Assembly (NCBI GenBank): GCA_007280935.1
Contig: QYQK01000002.1
Span: 1 to 34,605, forward strand
Length of the DNA: 34,605 nucleotides
Source: Opitutales bacterium
Lineage (GTDB): Bacteria > Verrucomicrobiota > Verrucomicrobiia > Opitutales > UBA953
Direction of reading: 5' to 3'
Shown here: positions 4,361 to 31,548 of the stretch, in pieces
Numbering within the stretch: position 1 is the stretch's first letter
Layout: each line of letters starts with the position of its first letter
Made by a program: the position numbers and the translations under genes
Notes under the pieces: model-generated
Seen by the model: the letters and a program-made list of their open reading frames with translations, nothing else
Told to the model about the DNA's origin: nothing
Databases searched by the model: none

Positions 4361-4381
4361 GGGCCAAACCAGCCACTTTCC

Positions 4382-4407: not shown

Positions 4408-4468
4408 ATTAAGTACGCGTTGCAAGGAACCATCTGCCCGCCAATCCTGTCCATAACTCGCCCACCCC

Positions 4469-7609: not shown

Positions 7610-9069
7610 ACTGCAACGACCATCAATTCCAAGGCCTCGACCATGCCACCCAGATGGCCTTATCGCGGCGTACTTTCATCAAGGGTTCCGCGGGCGGCAT
7701 CGGTCTCGCCGCCTTAGGCTCGATCATCAGTACCCCGACCTTCGCCGCCAACCCCGGCCTGGGCTTCCCTAACTTCAAGCCCAAGGCGAAGCGGATCATC
7801 TACCTGTTCCAATCCGGTGCACCTTCACAATTGGATCTCTTTGATCCGAAACCCGAGATGGAAAAAATGCGAGCTAAGGACCTCCCGGAAAGCATTCGCA
7901 AGGGTCAACGCCTGACCACGATGACGTCCGGCCAGAAGTCCTTCCCCGTCGCTCCTTCAATCTTCAAATTCAAACAGTATGGTCAATCTGGAGCGTGGTT
8001 CAGCGAACTCATGCCGCACATGTCTACCAAGGCCGACGCATGGTGCGTCGTCCGTGCGATGCACACGGAGGCGATCAACCACGACCCTGCCATCACGTTC
8101 ATGCAGACGGGCAGCCAGCTCGCAGGCCGCCCCAGCATCGGCGCATGGTCCGCTTACGGGCTCGGCAGCGAGAACGCCGATCTTCCCGCCTATGTGGTCA
8201 TGACTTCGTTCGGTAGCGGCCGACCCGAAGACCAACCGCTCTACGACCGACTCTGGGGCGCCGGTTTTCTGCCCTCCAAACTCCAAGGCGTTAAGCTCCG
8301 CAATAAGGGTGAACGCGTGCTTTACCTCAAGGACCCCGACGGCATCCCCCGCGAAGTACGCCGCGAACAGCTCGACGAGCTCGCCGCCCTTAACAACCAA
8401 CGCCACGACGTCCTCGGCGACCCCGAAATCCAGACTCGTATTTCACAATATGAAATGGCCTTCCGCATGCAGACCAGCGTGCCGGACCTGCTTGATCTTT
8501 CCAAAGAACCGCAACACGTCCTCGATCTCTACGGGCCGGATGTGAAACGTCCCGGCTCTTATGCCTCTAATTGCCTCCTGGCCCGTCGTCTCTGCGAACG
8601 CGATGTCCGCTTCGTCCAGCTCTTTCACATGGGCTGGGATCACCACGGCGGTCTGCCAAAGGCCATCAAAGGCCAGTGTAACGACACCGACCAAGCCACG
8701 GCTGGTCTCCTTACCGATCTCAAACAACGTGGGTTGCTCGATGATACCTTGATTGTTTGGGGTGGTGAATTCGGACGCACCATCTATTCGCAGGGTACCC
8801 TTACCGAAACCAATTACGGACGCGACCACCACCCGCGTTGCTTCACCGTCTTGATGGCCGGCGCCGGCGTCAATAAGGGCACGACCTTCGGCGAGACCGA
8901 CGACTTTAGTTATAATATCGTCAAGGATGGCGTCCACGTGCACGACCTCAACGCGACGATCCTGCACTTGATGGGCGTCGAGCATACCCGCCTTACCTAT
9001 CGCTACCAAGGTCGCGACTTCCGCCTCACTGATATCCACGGTGAAGTCGTGAAGAAGCTGCTGGCGTAA
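7606..9069 (+). CDS. DUF1501 family protein, Tat-exported
   Basis: ATGA overlap with the upstream stop (7606-7609) supports a start at 7606 rather than 7552. Tat motif SRRTFIKGSAGGIGLAAL; DUF1501 motifs GGEFGRTIYSQG, GRDHHPRCFTVLMAGAG, VHDLNATILHLMGVEHTRLTYRYQGRDFRL. Confidence 0.93.
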   Translation: MNCNDHQFQGLDHATQMALSRRTFIKGSAGGIGLAALGSIISTPTFAANPGLGFPNFKPKAKRIIYLFQSGAPSQLDLFDPKPEMEKMRAKDLPESIRKGQRLTTMTSGQKSFPVAPSIFKFKQYGQSGAWFSELMPHMSTKADAWCVVRAMHTEAINHDPAITFMQTGSQLAGRPSIGAWSAYGLGSENADLPAYVVMTSFGSGRPEDQPLYDRLWGAGFLPSKLQGVKLRNKGERVLYLKDPDGIPREVRREQLDELAALNNQRHDVLGDPEIQTRISQYEMAFRMQTSVPDLLDLSKEPQHVLDLYGPDVKRPGSYASNCLLARRLCERDVRFVQLFHMGWDHHGGLPKAIKGQCNDTDQATAGLLTDLKQRGLLDDTLIVWGGEFGRTIYSQGTLTETNYGRDHHPRCFTVLMAGAGVNKGTTFGETDDFSYNIVKDGVHVHDLNATILHLMGVEHTRLTYRYQGRDFRLTDIHGEVVKKLLA

Positions 9070-9155: not shown

Positions 9156-10649
9156 TTACTTCCCCGTCTGCTCCCGGTACATCACCTTGAAAGGATTCTC
9201 GGCCGGCCCGACGGCGTTCTCATTGACCATGAGCGGACGACACTCCTTCCACCAGGCATCATGCTTGGCGATCAGGTCAGAGACGACGTCGGGATGCGCC
9301 GAAGCGACGTCAGTCGTCTCCCCATAGTCGGTGCTTAAATCAAAGAGTTCCCACTTCGGACCGGAAGAATTGCCTTCCGTAGCAGCGCCAGCTGACTTCT
9401 TGGCTTTAGCGTTGGCCTTACCCTTGCCGCCACCTGAAGCACCGGCCGAAACCAAATGCCAGCGGGTCGTACGCACGCTCGTACCGGTAAACTTACTCGT
9501 CTCAGGATCGACACCCTTTACCATATTGCCCCAGCGGCCGACGTGCGTGAAGAGTACACGATCCGGCCAGTCGATATCCTGACCCACCTTTGCGGTCAGC
9601 AACCGGACGAGGCTGCGGCCTTCCATCTGGGCCTTCATCTGGTCGGAAGCCGGCGTACCCGTCAGTTCAAGAATCGTCGGAGCATAATCGATATGCGCGG
9701 CCAAGGCCTTGATATCCTGAGGCTGGAATTGCCCAGGTAACCGCCAGAAAGACATGGCTCGAATACCGCCCATGTATGGCGTGCCTTTGCCCGAGTGCAT
9801 CCCCGCGTTGAAGACCTTCACGCCAGCGGTACCGCCGTTGTCGTTCATCAAGACAATCAAGGTGTCTTTGGCGATACCCATGGCCTCAACCTTCGCCAGC
9901 AGCTTGCCGACATTAAGGTCGATATTATGGATCATACCGAAGAAATTTTCGGTATCCTTACCGAGGTTTTTACCTTCATAAATCGCGGCATCTTCTGGCT
10001 TGGCATGATAGGGGCCGTGCGGAGCGTTGGTCGCGATATAAGCGTAAAAAGGACGCTTCGCCGTCACTTCGCCTTCAATCCACGTCGTCGCCTGCTTAAA
10101 GAATTCGTCGGTACAATAGCCCTCGGTCTTCACGAACTTGCCATTATGCAATAACGTAGGGCCATAATATGAATTGCCCGGGACGTCGCCGCAGCTTCCA
10201 GGATAATGCTGTCCGATGCCGCCGGCTCCATGGATATAAACCTCGTCGAAACCGCGCTTGTTCGGTTGATACTCGGCTTCGTCGCCGAGGTGCCACTTAC
10301 CGAAGATACCCGTGCGATAGCCTGCTTTCTGGAGTTGCTGAGTCAATGTCACCGAAGCGAGCGTCATCCGCTCCCGCTCCAAGATGGTATGGGTGATGCC
10401 ATTCTTGAATTCATGTCGGCCGGTCAACAAGGCGCTGCGCGTCGGCGAACAGGTCGGTGATACCTGGAAGTCGACGAAACGGGCGCTTTCGCCGCGAAGT
10501 TTATCGATGTTAGGCGTCTTAAGAACGGGATTACCGTGAGCGCTCAGATCGCCATAGCCTTGGTCATCGGTCAGGATGAAAATGATATTAGGACGCTCGG
10601 CGGCGAGGGTCGCCAGACTGCTCAATAAGAGGGCTACAAGATATCTCAT
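9156..10649 (-). CDS. Sulfatase (arylsulfatase A-like), exported
   Basis: Signal peptide MRYLVALLLSSLATLAAERPNIIFILTDDQGYGDLS; FGly motif CSPTR at 10437-10451 (SPTCSPTRSALLTGRHEF); GKWHLGD; LMNDNGG. Confidence 0.95.
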   Translation of the reverse strand: MRYLVALLLSSLATLAAERPNIIFILTDDQGYGDLSAHGNPVLKTPNIDKLRGESARFVDFQVSPTCSPTRSALLTGRHEFKNGITHTILERERMTLASVTLTQQLQKAGYRTGIFGKWHLGDEAEYQPNKRGFDEVYIHGAGGIGQHYPGSCGDVPGNSYYGPTLLHNGKFVKTEGYCTDEFFKQATTWIEGEVTAKRPFYAYIATNAPHGPYHAKPEDAAIYEGKNLGKDTENFFGMIHNIDLNVGKLLAKVEAMGIAKDTLIVLMNDNGGTAGVKVFNAGMHSGKGTPYMGGIRAMSFWRLPGQFQPQDIKALAAHIDYAPTILELTGTPASDQMKAQMEGRSLVRLLTAKVGQDIDWPDRVLFTHVGRWGNMVKGVDPETSKFTGTSVRTTRWHLVSAGASGGGKGKANAKAKKSAGAATEGNSSGPKWELFDLSTDYGETTDVASAHPDVVSDLIAKHDAWWKECRPLMVNENAVGPAENPFKVMYREQTGK

Positions 10650-14920: not shown

Positions 14921-15739
14921 ATGGATAATCTAAAGGTTAACCTAACGCCCTCACTGACGGGCTGCCTGCGAACTCCTCGACCCTCTACCTGCGCCCCAGC
15001 CACCATGCCCCCTATCGTCGCATTACATGGCTTTACGGGCTCAAGCTGGGACTTTTCCGCCCTACGTTCTTGCCTGCCACCCGACCGGTCGCTCATCACT
15101 CCCGACTTCCCAGGTCACGGCTCCTTGCGCGACCTCACCGCCACCACGGCGTATTCGCTGGCCAATCACCTGAACATCATCGATCAAGCGGCCGGCACGA
15201 GCGGCCCCATTACGCTTTTAGGGTATTCGATGGGCGGTCGACTGGCCCTCCACTGGGCCATCGCCCACCCTGAGCGCATCGCCCGACTCATCCTGATCGG
15301 CGCCAGCCCCGGTCTAAAAACCGCCGAAGAACGCCAGGAGCGCCAACTCGCAGACGCCGCCCTCGCCACTTTCATTCGAACCCAGGGTCTGGACGCATTT
15401 TATAAGTATTGGCACCATCAACCTTTCTTTCACTCGCTTTTCAAACTGCCCACCGAGCGACTCCATCCACTCCTAGCTCAAAGAGCGCTCAATCATCCAG
15501 AAGCCTTGGCTTTAAGCCTGGAAAACGTCGGCACGGGTACCCTTCCCTCACTTTGGCATCGACTGAAAGAAGTCCGTTTTCCCGTTGATCTTATCACGGG
15601 CGAGTTTGATCCGAAATTCACTGAGCTAGCTCACGCAATGGGCGCACACATGCCGCGAGCTCGTCTCAGCGTCGTCGAACAGGCCGGCCACGCCGTCCAT
15701 CTCGAACAACCTGGCGACCTGGCGGCACTCCTGAGTTAA
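14921..15739 (+). CDS. Alpha/beta hydrolase, MenH-like
   Basis: ALHGFTGSSWDF, DFPGHGSLRD, LLGYSMGGRLALHWAIAHPERIARLILIGASPGL, ITGEFDPKF, VEQAGHAVHLEQP. The start is uncertain: TTG 14897, ATG 14921 or ATG 15005. Confidence 0.82.
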   Translation: MDNLKVNLTPSLTGCLRTPRPSTCAPATMPPIVALHGFTGSSWDFSALRSCLPPDRSLITPDFPGHGSLRDLTATTAYSLANHLNIIDQAAGTSGPITLLGYSMGGRLALHWAIAHPERIARLILIGASPGLKTAEERQERQLADAALATFIRTQGLDAFYKYWHHQPFFHSLFKLPTERLHPLLAQRALNHPEALALSLENVGTGTLPSLWHRLKEVRFPVDLITGEFDPKFTELAHAMGAHMPRARLSVVEQAGHAVHLEQPGDLAALLS

Positions 15740-17040
15740 GCGAAGATTCCGAGGACGGGTTTACCTTTATTTCCGATGACCATCGGGCGACCAGCTGGCG
15801 TCAGGATCTCTTGTTCGACTGGGAGACCCGCTGCGTGTGCAATGGTGGCATGGAAATTACCCACGGTGACAGGGTCTTTTTCCGGCCCATATCCTTTGGC
15901 GTCGCTCGTTCCATGGACATAACCGCGCTTGACTCCACCGCCGGCCAAGACCGTTGAGAAGACCAAAGGATGGTGACCGCGACCACCGCCCACAAATTCT
16001 GGCTTGCGACCGAACTCCGTGGTGACGGCGACCAAGGTAGAATCTAAAAGTCCGCGGGCTTCAAGGTCTTCAATCAGTGTCGCGAAAACGTGGTCAAACT
16101 CACCCCCGCGATCAGCCATGCTATCATCCAAGGTCTTGTGCATGTCCCAACCACCGCTGGATACTTCGACAAAACGAACGCCGTTTTCTACCAGACGTCG
16201 GGCGAGCAAGCAGCCTTGGCCGAATTTGCTCTTACCATAGCGTGCGCGCGTCTCCTTGGTTTCCGAATTCAGATCGAAGGCCTTAAGATCCGTGCTCTTC
16301 ATCAGCTGGAAGGTGGTATCGTAAAACTCGTTATACGCTTTCACGTTTTCATCCGCCGCTTTTTTGCCGAAGCCGGCGTCTAAGGCGATCAGAAGTTCGG
16401 CGCGCTTGGCTTGCACTTCTTCTGACTCGATGCTTTTCGTATTCATCAAGCCGTCTTCGGGACTCAGGATTGGCAGAGGTGAGTGCGAAGCAGGGAACCA
16501 ACCGTTACCGTGATTCGCCGAGCGATTGATGGCCACGGAGGATGGCAAAGTCTTATGGCTACCACCGAGGTAATGTTGCGCCCAAGCACCTAATGTGGGG
16601 TGCTGAACGGTCCCACGCCTTTCAAAACCGGTCCGCATCAGGTAGGCGGCCGAGGCGTGCACACCGACCTTGGCGGTCATGGAACGGATGACGGTAATTT
16701 TATCGGCTACCCCGGCGGTCTCCGGCAGGTAAGAAGTCAGTTGGAAATCCGCCCGCGTCGGAATGGGCGTTCCTGGTCCTTTGCTTTCACCCTTCTTCGG
16801 ATCGAAGGTGTCGATGTGCGACATCCCGCCCGCGAGCTCCAGGAAGATCACGCGCTTCGCCTTACCGAAGCCTGGCAGACCTGCGTTCGGCACCGCCGCC
16901 CCCTGCTTTTCCGCCGCATCGGCGACGCGCGAAAAGAAAGGCAAGACACTCAGGCCGAAAGAAATCTTCGCACAACGTTCGATGAAGGTACGGCGGTCTT
17001 CGGGTGTCCGAAGTTGATTCGCAAAGGTAGGTGAGATCAT
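15736..17040 (-). CDS. DUF1501 family protein
   Basis: EDRRTFIERCAKISFGLSVLPFF (Tat-like), RVIFLELAGGMSHIDTFDPKKGESKGPGTPIPT, TTEFGRKPEFVGGGRGHHPLVFSTVLAGGGVKRGYVHG. The 3' end overlaps the convergent hydrolase by 4 nt (TTAA, 15736-15739). Confidence 0.92.
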   Translation of the reverse strand: MISPTFANQLRTPEDRRTFIERCAKISFGLSVLPFFSRVADAAEKQGAAVPNAGLPGFGKAKRVIFLELAGGMSHIDTFDPKKGESKGPGTPIPTRADFQLTSYLPETAGVADKITVIRSMTAKVGVHASAAYLMRTGFERRGTVQHPTLGAWAQHYLGGSHKTLPSSVAINRSANHGNGWFPASHSPLPILSPEDGLMNTKSIESEEVQAKRAELLIALDAGFGKKAADENVKAYNEFYDTTFQLMKSTDLKAFDLNSETKETRARYGKSKFGQGCLLARRLVENGVRFVEVSSGGWDMHKTLDDSMADRGGEFDHVFATLIEDLEARGLLDSTLVAVTTEFGRKPEFVGGGRGHHPLVFSTVLAGGGVKRGYVHGTSDAKGYGPEKDPVTVGNFHATIAHAAGLPVEQEILTPAGRPMVIGNKGKPVLGIFA

Positions 17041-19199
17041 TGGATAAATAAGAATTCGCGGGTGTTAGCTAAGACCCAAGCCAAGTCGGCCAGGTGCAAA
17101 CCGTTGGCCAGGCCTTTCTGGGCGGCGGCCAATTCGACCGGGGTCGGATGGCGCGAAAGGTAGGAAAGGTAAAGCGAATGGATCGGACCGTCGGTCGCTT
17201 TTGACTTCAAAGCGGTGCCGATGGCCACGCCGGTGGGGTCAGAAACAAGCTTCCCGATCGAACCGTTCATCATCTGTAGCACCTGCGGCACGCTACCATC
17301 ATTGGTCGCAGAATCCGTTAAGAGGCGGTCGCCCTGTCCGAAGAGTCGCAAGAAGTGGGATTCGGAGGCGGGCTGGGGCAACTCGCTGGCGCGGGCCATG
17401 ATCATGCTGAAACGGGTGACGGGCTTTTCGCCTTCGTATCCCGTAGCCAAGCCCATGGAAGAACCGCCCCCGGTCTTCTTGCCGTCCGCCATACTCTTGC
17501 CTTTACCGTTCTTATTAATGCTATCGATAACTTTGTGAATGACCGCTGGGCTTACCTTGCCGTCAGGTAAGGAATACGCCATCAATACGTCCGAACGACG
17601 CAGTAAGATATTGTCGGCGTTGGTTCCGATCGAATTGACCACAAAACTGTCCCAGGCTTGCTCCGCGGTGAGGCGACGCACGAGCGGACCGTTGAAAAGA
17701 TAAGGTCCCTTGGCGAGATCAGGGGTGACGCTGGCGCCGCTCTGATAGGTCCGGGAATTGTAGATGACCCGTTGGAATTCACGCAGGTCGAAGCGGGCGG
17801 CTTTCATCACGGAGGTGAGGTGCGCCAATAATTCCGGGCTGCTGGCCTGACTTAGATCGTCAATATCCACGACGGGCTCGAGCACGGCCAACCCAAAGGC
17901 TTTCTTCCAAAGGCGGTTGGCGATGTTCGTGGCGAAACGTGGGTTCTGGGGGCTGACCAACCAGCGGGCAAACTCATCGCGGAGCTGCGAAGGATGGGTC
18001 GTATCCAACTTATAAATCGGTAACTTGGCGTCGTTCTTCTCCCAGGTGATCAGCACGGGCGACACCGGGGAACTTGGCTTGGCGTCCTTATATTTATAGT
18101 CCTTAGGGAAGGTCAGGCTGTTCTTGCTCTGATCTTCCAGTCGGTAGGAATTTACCAAACCAATCTTCACGACGACGTTCTTCGACAGGGTTGGGTCCGC
18201 TTTGAGCGTACTCTGAATCTGCCGCGCGATGCCCTCGTTCTTACCATCCGTCGCACCGAAGAAGGATGCCATCTGGAAGAAATCCCGTTGTTTCCACTCC
18301 GCCAAGGGGTGGTCGTGACATTGGGCGCAGGCCATATTGGTACCTAAGAAAGTGGTCATGAGGTTCGAAACCCCATCCAAAGGCATGTCGGCATCGAATA
18401 ACATGAAGCCCGCGGCACCATTATCGGTCAATCGGCCGTCGGCCGTGACCATTTCCTTCACCACCTGATCCCAAGGAGCGTTCGAAGCGATGCGGGACTT
18501 CAACCAGTCTTCGAAGGTAAAGGCTGGGACCGCTTTGCCGAAGGTGTCCTTGACGCGTAAGAGGTCCGCCATCCAATTGAACATCTGCATCGTGTAACCA
18601 GGCGAATAGACCAACTTATCGATCAACTTCGCCCGTTTATTGCCAGCCGCGTCGTTCAAGAATTCATTAGCTTCCTCCGCCGTGGGCACCCGGCCGATGG
18701 CATCCACGTAAATCCGGCGTAAGAACTGCTCATCCGTCGCCAAAGGGTTAGGTTTCTGTTCCTTACTGGCCAAAACCGCTTGGATTAGGCGATCGACATC
18801 CGCCGCCGCCGCCGCGATTACGGCCGGACTAAAGGCGGCTTCCTTGTCCTTGCCCGCACAGGCTACCGCAAACTCCCGGTCTTCCGGAATGAGGATATTG
18901 ACGTTAAATTGGAAGGTTTTCCCACCCTTGGTCTGAATGGTGATAAAATCCTTACTGTAAGCACAGAACATCGCATCCACCTTCCGACCTTCGAGGTCGG
19001 TCCATTGGTGCCAAATCGCGCTCTGGCGGGCAATCTCCGCTACAGGCGTGACTTTCGTGATGACCGGCGGATTAGCCTTCTCCTCTTTATGGACGGCCTT
19101 GCTTTCGGGCTTCTTACCGGCGCCAAGAGCTGGCTGACCATGGCAAATCAAGAGACCAAGGGTTAAAAGCGACAGGGGGAAAGCACGCAGGTGTCTCAT
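17037..19199 (-). CDS. DUF1549/DUF1553 (PSCyt2-PSD1) protein with an N-terminal SHD1-like segment
   Basis: CAQCHDHPLAEWKQRDF at about 18315-18329; ANRLWKKAFGLAVLEPVVDIDDLSQASSPELLAHLTSVMKAARFDLREFQRVIYNSRTYQ; N-terminal WTDLEGRKVDAMFCAYSKDFITIQTKGGKTFQFNVNILIPEDREF resembles SHD1. The ATG at 19199 (MRHLRAFPLSLLTLGLLICHG) gives a proper signal peptide; the track start at 19211 is GTG. Confidence 0.9.
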   Translation of the reverse strand: MRHLRAFPLSLLTLGLLICHGQPALGAGKKPESKAVHKEEKANPPVITKVTPVAEIARQSAIWHQWTDLEGRKVDAMFCAYSKDFITIQTKGGKTFQFNVNILIPEDREFAVACAGKDKEAAFSPAVIAAAAADVDRLIQAVLASKEQKPNPLATDEQFLRRIYVDAIGRVPTAEEANEFLNDAAGNKRAKLIDKLVYSPGYTMQMFNWMADLLRVKDTFGKAVPAFTFEDWLKSRIASNAPWDQVVKEMVTADGRLTDNGAAGFMLFDADMPLDGVSNLMTTFLGTNMACAQCHDHPLAEWKQRDFFQMASFFGATDGKNEGIARQIQSTLKADPTLSKNVVVKIGLVNSYRLEDQSKNSLTFPKDYKYKDAKPSSPVSPVLITWEKNDAKLPIYKLDTTHPSQLRDEFARWLVSPQNPRFATNIANRLWKKAFGLAVLEPVVDIDDLSQASSPELLAHLTSVMKAARFDLREFQRVIYNSRTYQSGASVTPDLAKGPYLFNGPLVRRLTAEQAWDSFVVNSIGTNADNILLRRSDVLMAYSLPDGKVSPAVIHKVIDSINKNGKGKSMADGKKTGGGSSMGLATGYEGEKPVTRFSMIMARASELPQPASESHFLRLFGQGDRLLTDSATNDGSVPQVLQMMNGSIGKLVSDPTGVAIGTALKSKATDGPIHSLYLSYLSRHPTPVELAAAQKGLANGLHLADLAWVLANTREFLFIQ

Positions 19200-19249
19200 G
19201 GGGTATTTCACTACCTATTGAACCCCATTGCGAACTAAGAGTTTCCAAA

Positions 19250-19375: not shown

Positions 19376-21760
19376 ATGAACCCCCTGCCGCACCTCCGTC
19401 CGCCCAACGCCGAAATTCGCCCCGACTTGAAAGCTTTTCGGGTCTTGGGCATCGATCTTGGCACCACCAATTCCACCATCGCCCAAGTCCGTTGGTCACC
19501 CACGCGTCCTGATGAAATCGAATTGGCCGAGTGCCTGGAAATCATCCAGCCGACGCTTTCCGGCGACTTCACCTCGGTGCTCGTGCCCTCGGTCGTCGCC
19601 CACCTTCCGGATCGCAGTTTCGTCGGCGAAGGCGCCCGCCGCACCATGAGTCGATCAGTCGAACTCGGTCTTCGCCCGAATGCGACTTATCTCGCCGAGG
19701 TAAAAAACGAAATGGGCATCGGCCGCACTTTTCCGCAGGCCAAATTAGGCAGTCGCACGCCGGCCGAAATCTCCGGGCAAGTTCTGCAATTTCTTCGTGC
19801 GCAAGCCAAGGGCGCCATCGCACGTACGGTCGTTACCGTGCCGGCTTCTTTTCAGATCAGCCAGCGTGACGACACGGTACGAGCGGCGAAACTCGCTGAC
19901 CTTACATTGGGCCACGGCGACCTGCTCGACGAACCGATTGCAGCCTTCATCGATTTCATCGCCCGCCAAGGACTCGCCGCCCTCGACGGCGTCAACGATA
20001 AGACCGAAGTGATGATCATCGATTTCGGCGGCGGCACCTGCGATGTCGCCCTCTTCACTTTGCAACGTACCGCCGACCAACGGCTCAAGATCAGCCCACG
20101 CGCAGTCTCCCGCTACCATCGCTTAGGAGGTGCGGATATTGACCGCGCCATCGTCCATGAGATCCTAATCCCCGCCCTCGCCCATCAGAACAAGATGGCG
20201 CTCGATGAATGGGAATATGAAGTTCGCAAAGAGCAGCTCGAACCCCAACTCCTGGCCACGGCTGAACAGCTCAAAATCGGCCTTTGCGAAATCATCAATC
20301 ACCGGCTATCTCACGGCGAAAATCTGGCCGAAATCGTCATCACGGCGAAGAAACAATATCCCGGCGTCCAGACGTTACTGCTCAACGATGGTACCCGCTT
20401 GGCCTTCAATTCTCCGACCCTGACCGGGATTGAGTTCACCAACGTCATGCACCCTTTCCTCGACGAGGACAGCGTGCAAGTACGTGAAGATGAATATACT
20501 TTAAGCTGTTCGGTCTTCGCGCCCATCGAAGACGCGCTTGATCGCGCCAAACTTAAGCCCTCTCAGATCGGCTTCCTGCTCGCCGTCGGCGGGAGTTCAC
20601 TTAACCCGCTAGTGATTGATGGCTTGAAGCAATATTTTGGCGAATTCTTAGTCCACCGTTTCGATAACGCCCTCGACATGCAAGTGGCCGTCGCCCGCGG
20701 TGCCGCCTACCATGCGCTCTTACTTCACCTTTACGGACAAAGCATTTTCACGCCGGTCGCCAGCGATCTCCTCAGCCTCCAAACTGACCGTGGGAACCAT
20801 GAAATCATCCCGCACAATCAGAAACTTCCTTTCTCCGGCCAGTTCAAGCCCAACCAAAACCACCGCTTCATCGCACCAGGCGGCCCCATTCGCATCGTTT
20901 TCTGGGCCGGCCTGGGCATGGGCTCCCGCCCAGTATTCACCGGCGTCACGCAACCGATTAAGGCGGGTACGCCCTTGACCCTGACCTACACGCTCGATGC
21001 CAACCAGCATTTCACGTTCGAAATCACTCCCGAGAAAGGTGGCGAAAGTTTTTCAGGTACCATCGAATCGCCCCTCCACAACGTCGTTAATCCAGGTAAA
21101 GACCGCGAACAGATTCTAGAGATCGAACGGAACATCCGAGCAAGCGTTTATGGTCCTGACCGGCTGCCCGTCCAGATCATCGAACTCGCAAACTTACACA
21201 ATAAGGTCGGTATGCACGACAAGGCCATTCATCTTCTGAAACGGCTCATCCGCCAACGTCCCGAATATAAGAAAAGTGGTCTAGCTCAACTGGCGATTGC
21301 CTACGGACGCAAGGGCGATGCCTATCGCCAAGAAAAAACCTACCTCGAATGCATTCTCGCGGGTAACTCTACGGCCCTTTTTAATTTGGCGAATTTTTAC
21401 ACTCGCAAAGGCCGCTGGCTCGAAGCCGAAGAACTCTGCCGACGCTATGAAGCCGAAGACCCGAGCGCCATCGGGATGGTCCTCTATTCCCGTTGCCTCC
21501 GGGCGCGCGGCAAGATCGAAGAATCCCAAACCGCCCTGGCCGATGCTTTCCGCCGCTTCGGTAAAGATCTCAGCCGGCTCGATGATTCCGCTTTCTCTTG
21601 GTATGGCGCCGCCGTCGAACTGGCCCAAGATACGGTCATTAAGAATGGGTATATCCTCGAAGAGCGCAGGCGTAACGACCTTCGCCCCGGACATCCCGCT
21701 ATCGGCGAAGGTCAGCTGCCACTCTTTGAATCCCATCACGACGAGAGGGAGCGGCCTTGA
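19376..21760 (+). CDS. Hsp70/DnaK-like protein with C-terminal TPR-like region
   Basis: FRVLGIDLGTTNSTIAQVRW (phosphate 1), VMIIDFGGGTCDVALFTL (phosphate 2), LLAVGGSSLNPLVIDGLKQYFGE (adenosine region), AVARGAAYHALLL. The C-terminus NLHNKVGMHDKAIHLLKRLIRQRPEYKKSGLAQLAIAYGRKGDAYRQEKTYLECILAGNSTALFNLANFYTRKGRWLEAEELCRRYEAEDP reads as TPR-like helical pairs. Confidence 0.9.
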   Translation: MNPLPHLRPPNAEIRPDLKAFRVLGIDLGTTNSTIAQVRWSPTRPDEIELAECLEIIQPTLSGDFTSVLVPSVVAHLPDRSFVGEGARRTMSRSVELGLRPNATYLAEVKNEMGIGRTFPQAKLGSRTPAEISGQVLQFLRAQAKGAIARTVVTVPASFQISQRDDTVRAAKLADLTLGHGDLLDEPIAAFIDFIARQGLAALDGVNDKTEVMIIDFGGGTCDVALFTLQRTADQRLKISPRAVSRYHRLGGADIDRAIVHEILIPALAHQNKMALDEWEYEVRKEQLEPQLLATAEQLKIGLCEIINHRLSHGENLAEIVITAKKQYPGVQTLLLNDGTRLAFNSPTLTGIEFTNVMHPFLDEDSVQVREDEYTLSCSVFAPIEDALDRAKLKPSQIGFLLAVGGSSLNPLVIDGLKQYFGEFLVHRFDNALDMQVAVARGAAYHALLLHLYGQSIFTPVASDLLSLQTDRGNHEIIPHNQKLPFSGQFKPNQNHRFIAPGGPIRIVFWAGLGMGSRPVFTGVTQPIKAGTPLTLTYTLDANQHFTFEITPEKGGESFSGTIESPLHNVVNPGKDREQILEIERNIRASVYGPDRLPVQIIELANLHNKVGMHDKAIHLLKRLIRQRPEYKKSGLAQLAIAYGRKGDAYRQEKTYLECILAGNSTALFNLANFYTRKGRWLEAEELCRRYEAEDPSAIGMVLYSRCLRARGKIEESQTALADAFRRFGKDLSRLDDSAFSWYGAAVELAQDTVIKNGYILEERRRNDLRPGHPAIGEGQLPLFESHHDERERP

Positions 21761-22977
21761 CCTGGCTTACTCCACCCGACCGGCTCACCGCCGCGCAGGC
21801 CGCTGCCATCAAGGCGCCGACCACGGTTCCGGTCGTGCTCCGCGGTGGCCCAGGTGCCGGCAAGACCGTGGTGCTTTTACATCGCGCCCATCACCTACGG
21901 CATGCCTTAGGCCCGCAGGCCAAGATCGTGGTTTTGGTTTACACCAATGTGCTTCGCGACTTCATCCGATCGGCGGTCACCGAACTCCGCCTCGACCCCG
22001 AATCCATCCTGACTTTCGACCATTGGTGCCGGCTTCGTCATCAAGAACTGCTCGGTCCGACACCCGTCGGTCAAGATGGCTTTCCGGATTTCGAACTGAT
22101 TCGCAAGAATGTCCTGAACCATCTGAAACGCCATCGGAACTCTCCTCCCCTTGCGGCCGTCCTGGTCGATGAAGGCCAAGATCTGGATGATGACTGTTAC
22201 TCCCTCCTGAAGCTGAGCGGGCAACACTTGACCGTAGCGTTCGATAATAAACAAGCCCTCTACCATGAGGCCCAAAAGAACGACATCCTTCTCGCTCTGG
22301 GCACACGTCCGATTGAAATCGACTTAGCCGCGACCTATCGTGCCTGTCCGTATGTCGTGAATCTTGCCTGCGAGTTCATCGACGATGCCATCGAGCGCGA
22401 ACAATTTCGCAGCCAAGCCGCGACCGTCCAGATGGAACGGCAGACCCCTTTGCTTTACCTGGCGGCGAACGACCAAGAAGAACAACAACGGCTGGTCGAA
22501 ATCCTCCGCGAGCGACTTCAGAAAAATGAACGTGTTGGCATTCTTTTTCCGACCATCAAGCAGGTCGGTTTGTTCGCCGACTTCCTGCGCACCCAGGGTA
22601 TCCTCGCCGATCGCCAGACCACCACTGACCGGAAAGGTTTCCGGGCCAGCTTGGATTTCTCTTCCGGCCGACCTGCCGTCCTGACTTACCATAGCGCCAA
22701 AGGCCTGACTTTTGATTCGGTACTCATGCCCGGCGTGACATCGTCATCCGTTCGCGCCAGTAGGAATACTGTCTCGCGGATGTTCTTCGTAGCCATCACG
22801 CGCGCCACGCAATGGGTCTACCTCAGCGCCCTTGAAACCAAAGCCCACGAGAAAATCCTGGCCGCCATGCGCAAACTTGAGGTTCAACGCCGCGGCCTGG
22901 TCCAAAATCGCAGCGATTTACCCAAAGTTCCACGACCGACCAACGTACCTAAGCCGGACGACTGGACGGATATCTGA
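21757..22977 (+). CDS. Compact SF1 (UvrD-like) helicase
   Basis: TTG start in a TTGA overlap with the Hsp70 stop, preceded by GAGGGAG. Motifs: RLTAAQAAAI (Q), LRGGPGAGKTVVLLHRA (I), VLVYTNVL (Ia), AVLVDEGQDLDD (II), AFDNKQALYH (III), ATYRACPYVVNLA (IV), VLTYHSAKGLTFDSVLMPG (V), FFVAITRATQWVYLS (VI). Confidence 0.9.
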   Translation: MTWLTPPDRLTAAQAAAIKAPTTVPVVLRGGPGAGKTVVLLHRAHHLRHALGPQAKIVVLVYTNVLRDFIRSAVTELRLDPESILTFDHWCRLRHQELLGPTPVGQDGFPDFELIRKNVLNHLKRHRNSPPLAAVLVDEGQDLDDDCYSLLKLSGQHLTVAFDNKQALYHEAQKNDILLALGTRPIEIDLAATYRACPYVVNLACEFIDDAIEREQFRSQAATVQMERQTPLLYLAANDQEEQQRLVEILRERLQKNERVGILFPTIKQVGLFADFLRTQGILADRQTTTDRKGFRASLDFSSGRPAVLTYHSAKGLTFDSVLMPGVTSSSVRASRNTVSRMFFVAITRATQWVYLSALETKAHEKILAAMRKLEVQRRGLVQNRSDLPKVPRPTNVPKPDDWTDI

Positions 22978-25069: not shown

Positions 25070-26503
25070 TCATTCTGCCTTCTTCTTGCCTTTGCCTTTT
25101 TTAATTACCTTGGCGGCACCATCGTCGCCTTCCTCTCCTCCGCCACTCTTGTGCGGAAGATCGGCGGCATCAGACTTTGGCAGGTATTTCGCCATCTCTG
25201 CTTTTTTCTCCGCCATCTCCGGCTTGCCAGCAAGATTGACGTACTCGAACGGGTCGGACGAATCCTGATACAGCTCTTCGCTGCCATCCGCATAACGGAT
25301 GTAACGCCAGTCCTCCGAGCGCACGGCATGGTTTCCTTTCATCCAAGTGGTCACGGCGGGCAACTTCCAAGCCGCTGCAGGATCTCGCAGTAATGGGGTG
25401 ATATCCGCGCCTTCTAGGTGCGAAGGCAGCGGAATCCCAGCCAAGGTGCAAACGGTAGGATAGATGCACGCGTAATCGACCGGACGCTGACACAAGGTAC
25501 CCGCCGTGGTGACACCAGGCACCCTCCAAATAAAGACCGTTCGCGTCGGCTCTTCCCAAAGCGCAAATTTACGCCAATGTTCCTTTTCGCCTAAACTCCA
25601 ACCGTGGTCGCTCCACAGGCAAATAATCGTGTTATCACGTTCCGGTGATTTCTCCCAAGCGTCAATCAGGCGTCCGACTTCGTAATCACAATACGCAATC
25701 GTCGCCAAATAAGCCTGCACGGCCTCTTTCCAACGTCCGGATTTCAGGATCGCGGCATGATCGCCTTGTGGTTTGGCGATCTTGACCCCCGCCGGCGGAA
25801 CGTCGGCCAAGTCGCCTTCGATATGCGGGGGTAATTGAATCTGATCCAACGGAAACAGGTCGAACCATTTCTTGGGTACGTTCCAAGGCATATGCGGCTT
25901 AACCAAGCCGGCCGCGATGAACCAAGGCTTCTCTTGCTTCTGGGACATTTTTTCGATGCACCAAGTGACGACGGAGTGATCCGGCATATCCTCATCCTTA
26001 CAGACTAACGGAGCAAATTTGATGCCACCGACTCCGTCGTCCTTGGCCTCGGGATGGAGTTTCAGCGGGCCGCCCTTCCCTCCAGCATAGTAGTCGTCGA
26101 AATAGCCTCCGCGATCGCCGGCGCCGTGGTAGATCTTGCCCGCACCGTAGACGGCATAACCGTTCTTCGCCAGATGGCTGTTAAGTAATTTATCTTCACT
26201 GATACCGGGGCGCCAATTCTGGGCGTTATCATAACAGCCGGTGCTGCTCGGCCTTAATCCCGACATTAGCGAGGCTCGGGACGGATTACAGGAAGGCGCG
26301 GTGCAATAGGCCTTAGTGAAACCCACGCCCAGCTTGGCGAGACGATCGATATTCGGCGTCCTAGTCTGTGCATTTCTGCCCAAGAAGCCAACCCAATGAT
26401 TCAGGTCATCGATAGGGATGAAAAGAATGTTCGGCTTCTTCGACGCATCGGCGCTCATCAAGGCCATCGGGCAGAGGCATAACCAAAATAACAGGGGGCG
26501 CAT
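25070..26503 (-). CDS. Sulfatase (iduronate-2-sulfatase-like), exported
   Basis: KKPNILFIPIDDLNHWVGFLGRNAQTRTPNIDRLAKLGVGFTKAYCTAPSCNPSRASLMSGLRPSSTG with FGly motif CNPSR at 26276-26290; LWSDHGWSLGEKEHWRKF; lysine-rich C-terminus. Confidence 0.94.
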   Translation of the reverse strand: MRPLLFWLCLCPMALMSADASKKPNILFIPIDDLNHWVGFLGRNAQTRTPNIDRLAKLGVGFTKAYCTAPSCNPSRASLMSGLRPSSTGCYDNAQNWRPGISEDKLLNSHLAKNGYAVYGAGKIYHGAGDRGGYFDDYYAGGKGGPLKLHPEAKDDGVGGIKFAPLVCKDEDMPDHSVVTWCIEKMSQKQEKPWFIAAGLVKPHMPWNVPKKWFDLFPLDQIQLPPHIEGDLADVPPAGVKIAKPQGDHAAILKSGRWKEAVQAYLATIAYCDYEVGRLIDAWEKSPERDNTIICLWSDHGWSLGEKEHWRKFALWEEPTRTVFIWRVPGVTTAGTLCQRPVDYACIYPTVCTLAGIPLPSHLEGADITPLLRDPAAAWKLPAVTTWMKGNHAVRSEDWRYIRYADGSEELYQDSSDPFEYVNLAGKPEMAEKKAEMAKYLPKSDAADLPHKSGGGEEGDDGAAKVIKKGKGKKKAE

Positions 26504-26661
26504 CAGGCCAATCTGTCTTTGTATTCAGGGCTATCAAGTGAGATTTCCTCCGAACGTACCGCCTAAAGCTATCTCGCCTAGGTGCGTTTGAAGATGATTG
26601 TGCTGCGGTTGACGGTATCACTAAAGGTTGTGCGGTCCTGATATCAGGCTTAACTGACATC

Positions 26662-28296
26662 ATGTTACCCCGCATCTTTGGTCTGGTTGCTTTCTTGGGC
26701 GCTCTGGTCACTGGCTTCGCCGCCGAACCTGCCCGGCCCAACGTACTGGTAATCCTGCTCGACGACGTCGGCTTCTCCGACATCGGCTGTTACGGCAGCG
26801 AAATCCCGACGCCCAACCTCGACGCTTTGGCTACCCACGGGGTTCGCTTTACGCAATTCTACAATACCGCACGCTGTAGCACGAGCCGTGCCTCGCTGCT
26901 CACCGGCCTCTACTCCCACCAAGCGGGTATGGGCTGGCTCGATGGCATGGTTAAACCCGAATCCCTCGGCACGCACGGCAGACTCCATGACCGATGCGTG
27001 ACCATGGCCGAAGTCCTGGGTTCGGCCGGCTATCACACTTCCATGGTCGGCAAGTGGCATCTTGGTCAACAAAACGGTACAACTCCTTGGAACCGCGGTT
27101 TTCAACGCACGGCGACCACGCAGTTCGGTGAACTTTATTTTCCCGTCGAACGCAGTGCGGAACCCTGCAAATACGTTTACCTTGACGGACGCAAGGTACC
27201 CTCCCATTCGCCCGAAGTCGGCACCGGCAATTGGTATGCGACGTCGATGTTCACCGATTGGGCTTTGAAATTCGTCGACGATGCCAAGGAGAAACAAAAG
27301 CCTTTCTTCCTCTACTTCGCCCACGGCGCCGCCCACTTCCCGCTGAAAGCGCCCGCCGACCTCATCGCTAAATATCGCGGCAAATATAAAGCGGGCTGGG
27401 ATAAGCTACGCGAAGTACGCTATGCCAAACAAATGGAACTCGGCATCATCGACCCTAAATGGCCGATGTCACCCCGCCCCGAAGAAGTCAAAGCCTGGGA
27501 TAGCCTTACCGCCGAAGAACAAGATCGCTTCGATAACATCATGGCCGTCTATGCCGCGATGATCGACGGGATCGACCAAAGTGTCGGACGCATGGTAGCC
27601 GGATTGAAAGAACGCGGCATGCTGGATAACACCCTGATTCTCTTCATGTGCGACAACGGCGGCAACGCCGAAGGCGGACCCAATGGCGTCACGCAAGGTG
27701 AAGTGATCGGCAGTCCCGACTCCCATGTGCTCCTCGGTATGAGCTGGGCTACCTTAAATAATACGCCGCTGCGCCGCTATAAGCACTTCACCCACGAAGG
27801 CGGCGTAAGCTCTCCCTTCATCGCCCATTGGCCCGCCGGCATCCCGGCCGCCCGCATGGGACAGATTGAAAATCAGCCGGGGCACCTGATCGATGTCATG
27901 ACGACCGTGATGGACGTCACCGGAACCACTTACCCTTCGGAATTCAACCACCATCGCATCCTTCCCGCCGAAGGTGTCAGCCTGCGCCCTGCCTTTCTTG
28001 GCCAGCCACTCCATCGCGTTAAACCGATCTTCTGGGAACACGAAGGCAATCGCGCCGTGCGCAGCGGCCCCTGGAAAGCCGTGATGAAATTCAAAGGCGA
28101 ATGGGAACTCTATAACATCGAAGAAGACCGAACCGAACTACACAACCTCGCCGGCATCAACAAAGCGATCGCCGGCCTGCTGGCCAAACAATGGGAAGAT
28201 TGGGCTGCCAGTTCTTTTGTCGACCCTTGGACGCTTCCGCCCACCAACAACTGGGGAGCGGAACCCATCAGGTTCAGCGGCGGGAAAAAGAAATAA
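26662..28296 (+). CDS. Arylsulfatase-like protein, exported
   Basis: ARPNVLVILLDDVGFSDIGCYGSEIPTPNLDALATHGVRFTQFYNTARCSTSRASLLTGLYSHQAGMGW; GKWHLGQQNG; LFMCDNGGNAEGG; FWEHEGNRAVR. Cys motif CSTSR at 26875-26889. Confidence 0.93.
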   Translation: MLPRIFGLVAFLGALVTGFAAEPARPNVLVILLDDVGFSDIGCYGSEIPTPNLDALATHGVRFTQFYNTARCSTSRASLLTGLYSHQAGMGWLDGMVKPESLGTHGRLHDRCVTMAEVLGSAGYHTSMVGKWHLGQQNGTTPWNRGFQRTATTQFGELYFPVERSAEPCKYVYLDGRKVPSHSPEVGTGNWYATSMFTDWALKFVDDAKEKQKPFFLYFAHGAAHFPLKAPADLIAKYRGKYKAGWDKLREVRYAKQMELGIIDPKWPMSPRPEEVKAWDSLTAEEQDRFDNIMAVYAAMIDGIDQSVGRMVAGLKERGMLDNTLILFMCDNGGNAEGGPNGVTQGEVIGSPDSHVLLGMSWATLNNTPLRRYKHFTHEGGVSSPFIAHWPAGIPAARMGQIENQPGHLIDVMTTVMDVTGTTYPSEFNHHRILPAEGVSLRPAFLGQPLHRVKPIFWEHEGNRAVRSGPWKAVMKFKGEWELYNIEEDRTELHNLAGINKAIAGLLAKQWEDWAASSFVDPWTLPPTNNWGAEPIRFSGGKKK

Positions 28297-28311: not shown

Positions 28312-31300
28312 CTATTTGACGGCGGTTCGTGGGTTCGGCAGGAAATAAAAATGCCCGTCTTCCGCTCCGCCCAAAAAATCCGGAATGCCGTCACCGTCAA
28401 AGTCGACGACTGTGGGGCTGACGTCATGGCCTTCGATATTCTCCTTCACCAGCGGGCCCATATCCTTGAAGAGCCACTTGCCGTCGCGTTCGCCGACCTG
28501 GCGGAGGAAATTCGCATTGGAAGAATTCAGCAGGATATCGGTTTTGCCGTCGCCATCCCAATCGACGACGCAAAGTTTCCGGCGGCCGCTCTTCCCTGCC
28601 ATCCCTTTGCTCAGCAATAACGGCTTACCGTCTTCGTCGCAGAAGGAGCGCCGAGGCGAAAGTAACACCCGTTTGCCATCTTTCAAAGCCCGCTCGAAGT
28701 AGGCGAGGTAACCTTCCTGATCTAGCATAACAAGATCGGTGAGTCCGTCCTTGTTCCAATCTACGGCGACCGGCGTGGTGCGCCACTGCGTCAGCAAGGC
28801 TTTCCCTTGGGGCTTCATCCAGCCCCACGCCATGGCGGGCTGAGCACCGTCCCATTCCACTTCGATCGGCTGGGCAATGCTAAGTTTCGGCTCCTTACGC
28901 GTACCGATGTTCTTATACCAAACGACCTTACCCAAGATGGAATTGACGATGAGGTCGGGCAGACCGTCACCATCCCAATCGGCAACCGACAGCGTCGTGT
29001 ATCCCCACTTAGCTTCGGCGGGACCTTGGATGCTACCATTACCACCGGCCATGATGCGCAGCGTTTTACCGTCTGCTTGCAACAGCTTAGGGGCCGCGAA
29101 CTTAGGCTTGGCCACGCCGGGTCCGCTCAGGTTTTCAAAGAAAGCGACATACCCCGCCGAATCGCCGCTGATTATATCCATGTCGCCATCTCCGTCCCAA
29201 TCAAAACCCACGGGCGTGGCGAGCGCTCCGAACTTCAAGTCATCCGCTTCTTGCTTGAAATACCGCGGGGGTGAAAAAAGCGGCGTGCGGTCGCTCGTAA
29301 ATTTTCCGGTATTTTCGATATAAGCGACTCGTCCATCTTCATCCCCAACGATGAGATCCGTCTTGCCGTCCTTATTCCAGTCAATCGCCACGGGGGTAAT
29401 CATCTCGAGATCCATCGTCAAAGCCCGTGGAGCGCCAGGAAGCTTCGATGCCTCAAACGTAGCCTTCCATGCCACCGATCGGGTATTCTCCGTGACGCCC
29501 GGCGGCACGGTTAAACGACGCCCTTCGGCATATTTAGGTTCCTTACGGGTTCCGATGTTTTCAAAATAAGTAAAACCATCCAAAAATTCTCCGCAGATTA
29601 GGTCAAGATCTCCGTCGCCGTCAAAATCCGCAAAGCAAGGCGAAGGCCAGCCGAAGGTCTCTAAGGGCTTGCTCCCAGCATTTATCTTGATCGGCGTGGC
29701 ATACTTGGGTTTTTCGTTGGTGCCGATATTACGGATAAGATAAACGAATCCGCGCAATGGACCTTTCGTCCAGATGCCTTTCTCGCTGTAAGCATTGTCC
29801 CAACCGTAATCCGTCCAATCCCCCACGCCGACGATGATGTCCGTCAAGCCGTCGCCATCGAAGTCAACTTGCTTCCACATATTAGCCCGGACTTTATTCG
29901 GATGGATATGCGTAGATAATGTCAACTTACGGCCGTCTTCCAATCCGCTCTTAAGAAAATCAGGGTATTCCATCGCCGGCCCCATGACTTTGGTGACGCC
30001 GTCGACGACGCTGAGCTCGATATTCTGCAAGCCTTTGCTGATACGCTGCGCCGACTTGAAGACCGGCATGGCGTTCTTGGCGGTGTCGACGCCCGACGAA
30101 AATACGTACACGCCGTTCGAAGGCTTGTCGGGACAGTTCACGACGAGGTCGAGCTTTCCGTCGCCATTGAAATCCATCGGTAAAGGCCAAGCCCAGAGTC
30201 CGACGCCTAGATCCACGACAAGTCCGGGGTTATTATATTTGAGCCTCTGCAAACCGGAAGCGACGGGTGGTGATGCGAGTTCGACGGCATGGGCGTAGAA
30301 AACGATCTGGTCGTACTCCTCCTTATGATTGCCGAAACCCTTGCGCAAAGGCGTGCGCAAAGCGTTCGTGCCGCCAGCCTGCATGACATCGGGCCCTTCT
30401 TTCGCCAAGAGTTCAGCGCCCTTGCTGCCGGGCCGCACAATCGCGATGTGGCCGGATTTCTGCGGATCGGGATTCTTAAGCGTGGCGAGGACGAGGCGTC
30501 CCTCGTTCGCTTGCTGTTGCGCAGCAGTGCCGTCCTTCAAGACGACCCATCCCGCTTTCTTGCCGGCATCCGATGCCAACCAATCGAACTGCGCATTGGC
30601 GAGTAATACCACGCCATGCTCCGGCGGACGCAGGACATACATTCCAAACCGTTCGGTCGCTGCGGCCACAAACTGACTGCAATGTGTATGCTTGCTCTTG
30701 GCATCTTTGATCGGCTGGCCAGTCGGTAAGCCGGTCTGCCAATCGACGACCGCCCCAGGCAACCAATACTTATCAACCTCCATGGCTTCGAGGCGCTTCC
30801 AAAGCTCTTCGGTTGGCCCCTTGGGTCGCGCAACCCAGCGCACGGCCTTCTCGACTAAAGGCTCTAGTCCGGCTGTCTGCTCCGGATGCGGACTGGACGT
30901 GAAAACGCGTCCGAGCCCGAAGGTACTGCGGACCATGGCAGGTGCCTTCACCATCACGCCGACGGGAGTATCATTCTCCGCCAACTCGGTTTGAAAACGG
31001 AGGAGGGTCTCAAATGCTGGCAGGTCCTTACGGACATCAGGCTTAATGATGGGACCATTGGCATAACGAATACCGCGATTGGAAATCGTCTCCCCGAAAG
31101 CTATCCCATCAATTTTAACCTCACCCTGTCCGCGCCGCCACTTCGACGACACAGTCTTGGCATTGAGCACACCGATGCCCCATTCGAAACCACTGCATGC
31201 GAGGTAAGCACCGGCACAGATCCCGACATAGCCTCCACCGTTTCGTACAAATTCACGCACCTGAGCGCGACCTACTTCGGTAAGTCCATCGGCTTCTGCG

Positions 31301-31539
31301 CTTCCGCTTCCGCCCGTAAACATGACCAAATCATAACCTTTAAGTCCATCCAGTGCGGCGAAATCAGTGCCTTTTAATCGGGTAAGTTTGATGTCAGGCG
31401 TCTTACTGAAAATGGCTTCAACCGAGGGAATACCCTTACCGGTCGCCCCTTTGTCATCATAGAGGGCGACCTTGATGACTTGCGATTCAGCCGCCCATGA
31501 CGAGACGACAAAGGTCAGGGCCAGAAGAAATGCTTTCAT
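28312..31539 (-). CDS. Large exported protein: BPL_N/glutamine-amidotransferase-like domain, putative cysteine-amidase-like domain, and about 9 FG-GAP/VCBS-type repeats
   Basis: MKAFLLALTFVVSSWAAES signal peptide (the track start 31548 adds MSI). VIKVALYDDKGATGKGIPSVEAIF...VMFTGGSGS...GGGYVGICAGAYLACS; HTHCSQFVAAATERFG...SGHIAIVRPG...QAGGTN; repeats such as DFNGDGKLDLVV, DFDGDGLTDIIVG, DFDGDGDLDLICGE, DWNKDGKTDLIVGD, DWDGDGDMDIISGD, DWDGDGLPDLIVN, DWNKDGLTDLVML, DWDGDGKTDILLN, DFDGDGIPDFLGG. Confidence 0.88.
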   Translation of the reverse strand: MKAFLLALTFVVSSWAAESQVIKVALYDDKGATGKGIPSVEAIFSKTPDIKLTRLKGTDFAALDGLKGYDLVMFTGGSGSAEADGLTEVGRAQVREFVRNGGGYVGICAGAYLACSGFEWGIGVLNAKTVSSKWRRGQGEVKIDGIAFGETISNRGIRYANGPIIKPDVRKDLPAFETLLRFQTELAENDTPVGVMVKAPAMVRSTFGLGRVFTSSPHPEQTAGLEPLVEKAVRWVARPKGPTEELWKRLEAMEVDKYWLPGAVVDWQTGLPTGQPIKDAKSKHTHCSQFVAAATERFGMYVLRPPEHGVVLLANAQFDWLASDAGKKAGWVVLKDGTAAQQQANEGRLVLATLKNPDPQKSGHIAIVRPGSKGAELLAKEGPDVMQAGGTNALRTPLRKGFGNHKEEYDQIVFYAHAVELASPPVASGLQRLKYNNPGLVVDLGVGLWAWPLPMDFNGDGKLDLVVNCPDKPSNGVYVFSSGVDTAKNAMPVFKSAQRISKGLQNIELSVVDGVTKVMGPAMEYPDFLKSGLEDGRKLTLSTHIHPNKVRANMWKQVDFDGDGLTDIIVGVGDWTDYGWDNAYSEKGIWTKGPLRGFVYLIRNIGTNEKPKYATPIKINAGSKPLETFGWPSPCFADFDGDGDLDLICGEFLDGFTYFENIGTRKEPKYAEGRRLTVPPGVTENTRSVAWKATFEASKLPGAPRALTMDLEMITPVAIDWNKDGKTDLIVGDEDGRVAYIENTGKFTSDRTPLFSPPRYFKQEADDLKFGALATPVGFDWDGDGDMDIISGDSAGYVAFFENLSGPGVAKPKFAAPKLLQADGKTLRIMAGGNGSIQGPAEAKWGYTTLSVADWDGDGLPDLIVNSILGKVVWYKNIGTRKEPKLSIAQPIEVEWDGAQPAMAWGWMKPQGKALLTQWRTTPVAVDWNKDGLTDLVMLDQEGYLAYFERALKDGKRVLLSPRRSFCDEDGKPLLLSKGMAGKSGRRKLCVVDWDGDGKTDILLNSSNANFLRQVGERDGKWLFKDMGPLVKENIEGHDVSPTVVDFDGDGIPDFLGGAEDGHFYFLPNPRTAVK

Positions 31540-31548
31540 GATAGACAT

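Follow-up and report, generated by a model that had tools for sequence, protein, structure and literature searches.

The stretch of DNA analysed here, in the following called the window, comprises 34,605 nucleotides of contig QYQK01000002.1 from an Opitutales bacterium (Verrucomicrobiota). It carries two overlapping genes, one for an Hsp70 protein with tetratricopeptide repeats (TPRs) and one for a compact helicase of superfamily 1 (SF1). An earlier note on this DNA, made from the sequence alone, had proposed two open reading frames at 19376-21760 and 21757-22977 with a TTGA overlap, and this arrangement was confirmed. The first gene (19376..21760, plus strand) has an ATG start and codes for 794 amino acids; its product was assigned by a Pfam HSP70 match, an AlphaFold2 (AF2) model and a Foldseek alignment with DnaK. 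The second gene (21757..22977, plus strand) has a TTG start and codes for a UvrD/PcrA-like protein of 406 amino acids, assigned by Pfam, AF2, Foldseek and a profile alignment. The TGA stop codon of the Hsp70 gene and the TTG start codon of the helicase gene overlap at 21757-21760, and upstream of the TTG a Shine-Dalgarno-like sequence, GAGAGGGAG, can be read at 21743..21751. This sequence and all parts of the two genes described below lie on the plus strand.

The Hsp70 protein matches Pfam HSP70 at residues 23-305 (E 5.6e-24) and TPR families at about residues 602-722. The AF2 model (mean pLDDT 88.5) consists of a nucleotide-binding domain (NBD) at residues 1-455, then about nine strands folded into a beta-sandwich (466-564), and helices at 575-769. 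The NBD (19376..20740) contains the phosphate-1, phosphate-2 and adenosine motifs of the Hsp70/DnaK family, readable as DLGTTNS, DEP (E186), DFGGGTCD (D216, T221, D223) and VGGSS together with K110. In an alignment of 29 family members K110, E186, D216, T221, D223 and the residues GGS 405-407 are invariant, and D27 and T30 are conserved to at least 90%. We take the single residues named here to be equivalent to the catalytic residues of DnaK, and the proposal of an intact Hsp70 ATPase was borne out by these data.

The note had further suggested that the TPRs replace the usual C-terminal region of Hsp70. This holds for the helical lid only. Using Foldseek, the model could be aligned with the lid-less DnaK structure 7krv_B across the NBD and the beta part of the substrate-binding domain (SBD-beta; TMt 0.72, target of 541 residues), and an alignment of the family profile with 9dvi_B reaches DnaK residue 527. 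Because both alignments span NBD and SBD-beta, the models indicate that SBD-beta is retained (about residues 460-566, 20753..21073) with peptide binding as a predicted property, whereas the alpha lid is exchanged for a TPR array (residues 575-770, 21098..21685). The protein thus shares the Hsp70 ATPase and the SBD-beta fold with DnaK, HscC and HscA, but differs from them by the TPR array in place of the alpha lid and by its helicase partner. N670 is the sole invariant residue of the array. It led us to consider a classical carboxylate-clamp TPR, but by eye the adjacent repeats do not contain the expected Lys or Arg, and a clamp is therefore not claimed. The C-terminal tail (21686..21757) carries a Leu-Pro motif, GQLP, with L781 conserved to 93% and P782 to 72%.

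The helicase matches the Pfam families UvrD_C (E 3.8e-12) and UvrD-helicase (E 1.7e-10), and the best Foldseek matches of its AF2 model (pLDDT 88.7) are UvrD and PcrA with an E value of about 1e-15. The structure predictions were based on alignments without plasmid-derived rows. As proposed before, SF1 motifs Q and I-VI are readable. In an alignment of 31 helicases the invariant residues comprise Q14, G30, G33, G35 and K36, D138, E139, Q141 and D142, D163 and Q166, R195, K315, G316, L317 and F319, and R349; they include those of the Walker A sequence GGPGAGKT (21841..21867) and of Walker B or motif II, DEGQD (residues 138-142, 22168..22182). The expectation that the protein is too short for complete 1B and 2B domains was also correct, since an alignment of its profile with UvrD skips both stretches. 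The enzyme therefore appears, from model and profile, to be a UvrD/PcrA-type helicase cut down to RecA1-RecA2. It has all motifs of the SF1A enzymes UvrD, PcrA and Rep on the same two-domain core, but in contrast to them it lacks the accessory domains, ends in a tail that resembles a docking peptide, is patchily distributed and is not a housekeeping enzyme.

Since HelR is the best NCBIfam match of the helicase (E 4e-13) and the profile search also brought up HelD structures, we considered an RNA polymerase recycling factor of the HelD/HelR type with a chaperone partner. The full-length HelR model scored only 48.5 bits, well short of the cut-off of 750 bits, with residues 11-50 as the best stretch, 406 amino acids cannot accommodate the HelD arms, and the fold search ranks UvrD/PcrA first. 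This assignment is very improbable.

To follow the pair across bacteria, the Hsp70 alignment was used for a scan of GTDB genomes, which returned 80 loci. Of these, 43 scored above 300 bits and constitute the Hsp70-TPR family, and the others are ordinary DnaKs below 170 bits. Together with two plasmid loci and two from a phylum search the family comprises 47 loci. The plasmid copies, found by tblastn, belong to Persicobacter (Bacteroidota) and Antarctobacter (Alphaproteobacteria); the latter is located between insertion sequence (IS) elements. The family is well separated from housekeeping chaperones, both in the tree and by profile E values (<1e-219 versus >1e-36 in four genomes). At 40 of the 47 loci the compact helicase is the next gene on the same strand (in fragments at L059), and behind the generic DnaKs of the same scan no such helicase was found. 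Of 39 loci, 18 have the 4-nucleotide overlap of stop and start codon, and in most of the remaining ones the two genes lie within 20 nucleotides.

The family rows span 14 phylum-level groups (about 14 phyla). Several members come from isolates (Rhodoferax, Pontibacter, Zeaxanthinibacter, Bacteroides and Dulcicalothrix), so that binning errors do not explain this spread. A comparison of the Hsp70 and helicase trees gave a mirror-tree correlation of r = 0.87, a value reached in 0 of 2000 permutations, with the phyla mixed. The agreement of the trees and the mixing of phyla show that the pair travels as a unit. The earlier description of an autonomous module is thus supported by neighbourhood and joint inheritance far beyond the genus. 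That two unrelated genes are adjacent by chance, an idea for which only the unrelated flanking genes of the window could be cited, is refuted by the same adjacency with matching trees across about 14 phyla.

Within single groups the family is sparse. When three candidates per genome were scored, members were found in 3 of 296 Bacteroidota genomes and, for the class to which Rhodoferax belongs, in 1 of 274, the query genome being counted in both cases. In a phage collection the Hsp70 had only partial matches of a DnaK-like kind (about 25%) and no relative over its full length, from which it follows that the module is not phage-borne in this collection; a scan of viral contigs yielded weak motif matches only. 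We conclude that the module is rare, patchy and horizontally spread.

The seven loci without a following helicase are of different kinds. L069 and L084 end at a contig edge, and at L086 IS66-type genes (3645-4180) stand directly behind an Hsp70 with a fused HEPN domain. The helicase is lacking behind the Hsp70-TPR genes of L067 (9782-12292), L068 (2850-5288), L094 (3-2342) and L058 (10001-12403), and at L058 the Hsp70 gene is directly followed by one for a 235-amino-acid protein of no assigned family. These genes possibly represent a solo branch in Pseudomonadota. Damaged copies include, besides L086, the loci L171 and L172, and in-frame stops occur in two of the three Bacteroidota matches; such copies are typical of turnover.

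The nearest public relatives of the window pair are metagenome-assembled genomes of Opitutia (Verrucomicrobiota). In the genus of the window 15 of 55 genomes contain the helicase, compared with 0 of 24 in four sister genera. The Hsp70 gene is directly upstream in 15 of 15 cases, and one further genome has the Hsp70 gene at a contig end. A lack of conserved neighbourhood, which the note had named as one of the results that would speak against the pair, is clearly not what we observed, either in the genus or across the phyla. Wherever the flank is well readable, the pair adjoins the same divergent PSCyt2/DUF1501 operon, and in several pair-less genomes this operon directly abuts the gene that stands behind the pair elsewhere. 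The pair is thus a clean two-gene cassette at one insertion site. Its sequence identity (64-69%, or 95-99% between closer genomes) tracks that of the flanking gene (about 65%, or 93-99%), which looks like inheritance within the genus accompanied by loss. At 95-99% identity the ratio of nonsynonymous to synonymous substitutions (dN/dS) is about 0.05, and both genes are under purifying selection.

No defence gene was found among the Pfam-annotated genes of the window; the neighbours code for sulfatases, PSCyt/DUF1501 proteins, esterases and similar proteins. As the pair sits at a fixed site among these unrelated genes, the window alone gives no hint of a defence function. Genes for sulfatases, DUF1501 and PSCyt1/PSCyt2/PSD1 proteins and 3-keto-disaccharide hydrolases are dense at 866-9069, 9156-10649, 15736-19211 and 25070-28296; such sets are usual in bacteria of the Planctomycetota-Verrucomicrobiota-Chlamydiota (PVC) group that degrade sulfated polysaccharides. 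The gene at 28312-31548 codes for a 1078-amino-acid FG-GAP repeat protein with a weakly BPL_N/ThuA-like start, and its Pfam match to TcdB_midN lies inside the repeats and probably reflects repeat similarity.

The C-terminus of the helicase is a further conserved feature of the pair. In the window a low-complexity linker and the acidic/hydrophobic tip DDWTDI (22918..22974) form the proposed docking tail. Behind a variable linker, the very last residue is F, L, I or Y in 35 of 36 intact paired helicases, and 31 of the 36 have D or E within the last eight residues; further examples are DDLDFL, ELFDDFL, DELFF, IDDLF and EISLF. Among 238 neighbour proteins only 26.5% end with F, L, I or Y (Fisher p 6e-17, an optimistic value for related sequences). 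The tip is absent from compact or NERD-type helicases without Hsp70, namely those of L018, L045 and L046 and the NERD-UvrD proteins of L054 and L060. A beta-clamp-binding motif, QxxLF, was considered for the C-terminus, but only L047 (QADLF) fits. SSB recruits its partners through a comparable free terminal tip, and EEVD tails meet TPR domains in a different form. Since the tip is likewise free at the very end, and since the Hsp70 offers both a TPR array with N670 and a retained peptide-binding domain, the sequences suggest that the tail likely tethers the helicase to the Hsp70.

Two of the helicases without Hsp70 belong to DISARM-like gene sets. L018 on plasmid p1 of Streptomyces fungicidicus (2954-9011) and L046 (2248-10225) contain DrmA- and DrmB-like genes followed by the compact SF1 helicase as the third gene, and L046 carries a NERD-UvrD gene in addition.

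The description as a two-gene module is correct for the branch of the window, whereas in other clades there is an additional gene and a HEPN domain joined to the Hsp70. In type A, to which the window belongs, the module has two genes with an Hsp70 of about 800 amino acids and usually the 4-nucleotide overlap. Type B occurs in Bacteroidota, Cyanobacteria, Myxococcota and some Proteobacteria and Verrucomicrobiota. Here a third gene usually follows, whose product of 341-589 amino acids is conserved in its N-terminal part but not in its tail, which is variable; Pfam gave no meaningful match for it, only a stray FAD_SOX match in one member. Type B Hsp70s can carry an N-terminal HEPN_Swt1 domain, which is above the Pfam cut-off in L047, L086 and L087 and below it in L017. 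The RNxxxH motif is present in these four and in L076, which makes five HEPN-type Hsp70s, and the Hsp70 of L072 has a NERD-like N-terminus just below the cut-off. In conflict systems HEPN domains typically act as RNase effectors (PMC3710099). L016, L078 and L079 form a small group besides these two types, with a different third gene where this is visible. Dulcicalothrix desertica carries the three-gene module twice, as near-copies about 18 kb apart on one contig (L174, 6728-11403; L175, 6157-10871).

The neighbourhoods of the pair in other genomes contain many defence genes, so that the link to defence guessed in the earlier note has become visible by PADLOC matches outside the window. At L047 the pair is directly downstream of a PglZ gene (E 1e-271) and a gene that is BrxL-like by sequence. 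The neighbours include a type IIG restriction-modification (RM) protein at L052 (E 1e-175, together with HKD-Snf2) and type IIG RM together with NERD-UvrD at L054 and L060; at L060 the pair directly follows the RM protein and an ABC-type ATPase. At L062 it is directly downstream of type IIG RM and the DUF1016-type nuclease PDC-S02 (E 3e-125). Further neighbours are PDC-M27 (L056), a PDC-M55/HEC-05 match (L076), reverse transcriptase UG19 (L074, E 5e-123), a type II methyltransferase (L082, E 9e-115) and HsdR (L089, E 3e-157). Models of type I R, M and S subunits and of SoFic are also among the matches, and L077 has HsdR- and Fic-like genes by sequence. A DprA/SMF-like protein of one family (34% identity) adjoins the module at two unrelated loci, one of type A and one of type B (L064, 9268-9894; L176, 12312-12788).

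The loci L047, L060 and L062 could also be taken to mean that the pair belongs, as a set of accessory subunits, to larger systems of the restriction, BREX or ARMADA-like kind. The partners vary from locus to locus, however, and many loci, including the window and the plasmid copies, have no such partner. PglZ and other BREX core genes were found at a single locus (L047) and not in the window, and thus do not accompany the pair constantly. We regard an accessory role of this kind as improbable.

From the strict pairing, the joint inheritance, the conserved catalytic residues and tails, the patchy distribution, the defence islands in many genomes and the HEPN fusion in one branch, we infer that the pair is probably the core of a mobile accessory conflict system, directed most likely against phages or plasmids. 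Several points weigh against this. The 90 pair neighbours matched 275 PADLOC families (E up to 1e-12) compared with 8 for 90 control genes, but this enrichment is only indicative, because the control genes lie near housekeeping dnaK (3-11 kb from it, the nearest neighbours having been dropped as mostly grpE and dnaJ) and because many PADLOC models overlap. A strong tested defence neighbour is present at about 11 of the 36 neighbour-scanned loci, and others have metabolic neighbours (e.g. L051 and L088). The type A clade has no recognised effector, and the p value of the tail overstates the independence of its sequences. In the genus of the window the pair occupies a single stable site on the chromosome, where no defence gene adjoins it, and it diverges at the pace of the flanking PSCyt2 gene, as would suit an accessory function that is inherited vertically.

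The main alternative is an accessory module for stress or quality control, in which the Hsp70-TPR protein strips or refolds proteins on stalled forks, R-loops or ribosomes and the helicase clears the nucleic acid, with no role in phage defence. The active-looking ATPase with its retained SBD-beta, the UvrD/PcrA-type motor, the strong purifying selection at the stable site and the metabolic neighbours at several loci are consistent with such a role. It is less easily reconciled with the rare and transferred occurrence in about 14 phyla, the location on plasmids and in defence islands, the HEPN RNase fusions, the absence from most close relatives and the copies damaged by in-frame stops or IS elements. 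For the family we hold this explanation to be unlikely, and it is stronger for the window because of the stable site and the lack of defence neighbours there.

Comparison with known systems supported the earlier statement that no characterised system is known to contain this pair. PADLOC returned no whole-protein match to a system gene: the best E value of the Hsp70 was 0.004, and the helicase matched the UvrD domains of helicases from other systems. A literature search brought up no description of an Hsp70 in combination with a UvrD-type helicase, the nearest published systems being the CoCoNuTs and the GTPase/HSP70 systems, although subscription papers and preprints were mostly outside the coverage of this search and an existing name is possible. 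Relative to everything that could be compared, the pair is new as a system, and by kind it belongs with the multi-gene conflict systems.

Among these, CoCoNuTs of types II and III combine an Hsp70-like protein, CnuD, with the SF1 helicase CnuH, frequently joined by a HEPN RNase as effector, in a defence context (PMC11090510). They are built on McrB/McrC-type components, none of which stands beside the window pair: an McrB-like GTPase or McrC-like partner was neither among the Pfam-annotated genes of the window nor among the best 25 neighbour families elsewhere. CnuH resembles UPF1 and contains long coiled-coil insertions; the window helicase, in contrast, is a bare UvrD-like core for which UvrD/PcrA ranks first by sequence and fold, and UPF1 lower. 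CnuD is described with a degenerate ATP site and has been proposed as an RNA-binding part (PMC11090510), in contrast to the invariant ATPase residues of the Hsp70-TPR proteins. The Gabija defence system, also of two genes, includes GajB as a UvrD-like SF1A helicase (profile match E 2e-24), but GajB is larger (about 490 amino acids) and its partner is the nuclease GajA; no GajA adjoins the window helicase, whose partner is Hsp70. We therefore do not assign the pair to CoCoNuT, Gabija or BREX. NERD-UvrD (PADLOC C3a187) is the closest PADLOC model (E 2.3e-20, residues 26-360), and the window helicase differs from it by the missing NERD nuclease domain and by the Hsp70 partner. The proposed GTPase/tubulin/HSP70 conflict systems also use an HSP70 chaperone, but they are GTPase-centred and have GrpE/DnaJ partners instead of TPRs on the Hsp70 itself, and a text search revealed no UvrD or SF1 helicase in them (PMC7159879).

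The note had suggested that the Hsp70 may load, unload or regulate the helicase. For a conflict system the following mechanism can be envisaged. The compact UvrD-type translocase would engage foreign or damaged nucleic acid or nucleoprotein, while its free acidic/hydrophobic tail would keep it tethered to the Hsp70, the probable place of docking being either the TPR groove or the peptide site of SBD-beta. This docking would reverse the usual arrangement, in which the EEVD tail of Hsp70 itself binds TPR co-chaperones. With its ATP cycle as timer or gate, the Hsp70 could keep the helicase, and the fused HEPN RNase where present, in an inactive state until a phage protein or a stalled complex occupies the peptide site and the helicase is released or assembled. 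The outcome would be clearance of nucleic acid or growth arrest driven by the RNase; in the branch of the window, with two genes and no HEPN domain, either the helicase itself or the product of a gene elsewhere would be the effector. Phages burden the cell with folding clients and upset its proteostasis, which makes chaperones natural sensors of infection. Only tentatively do we extend this to an undescribed immune system in which the Hsp70 ATPase cycle switches a nucleic-acid motor whose tail docks at the TPR or peptide site of the Hsp70, and in which some branches use exchangeable nuclease domains at the N-terminus of the Hsp70 (HEPN, possibly NERD) as effectors.

To our knowledge, hardly any bacterial immune system is known to have an active-looking Hsp70 at its core. 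If the pair is a defence system, the Hsp70 chaperone cycle would join the switches that trigger bacterial immunity, beside the CoCoNuTs. The DnaK family gains a branch whose lid is, according to the models, exchanged for TPRs. The pair may also serve as a minimal model for the control of a nucleic-acid motor by Hsp70, and the conserved tail and the invariant N670 make this control testable with few mutants.

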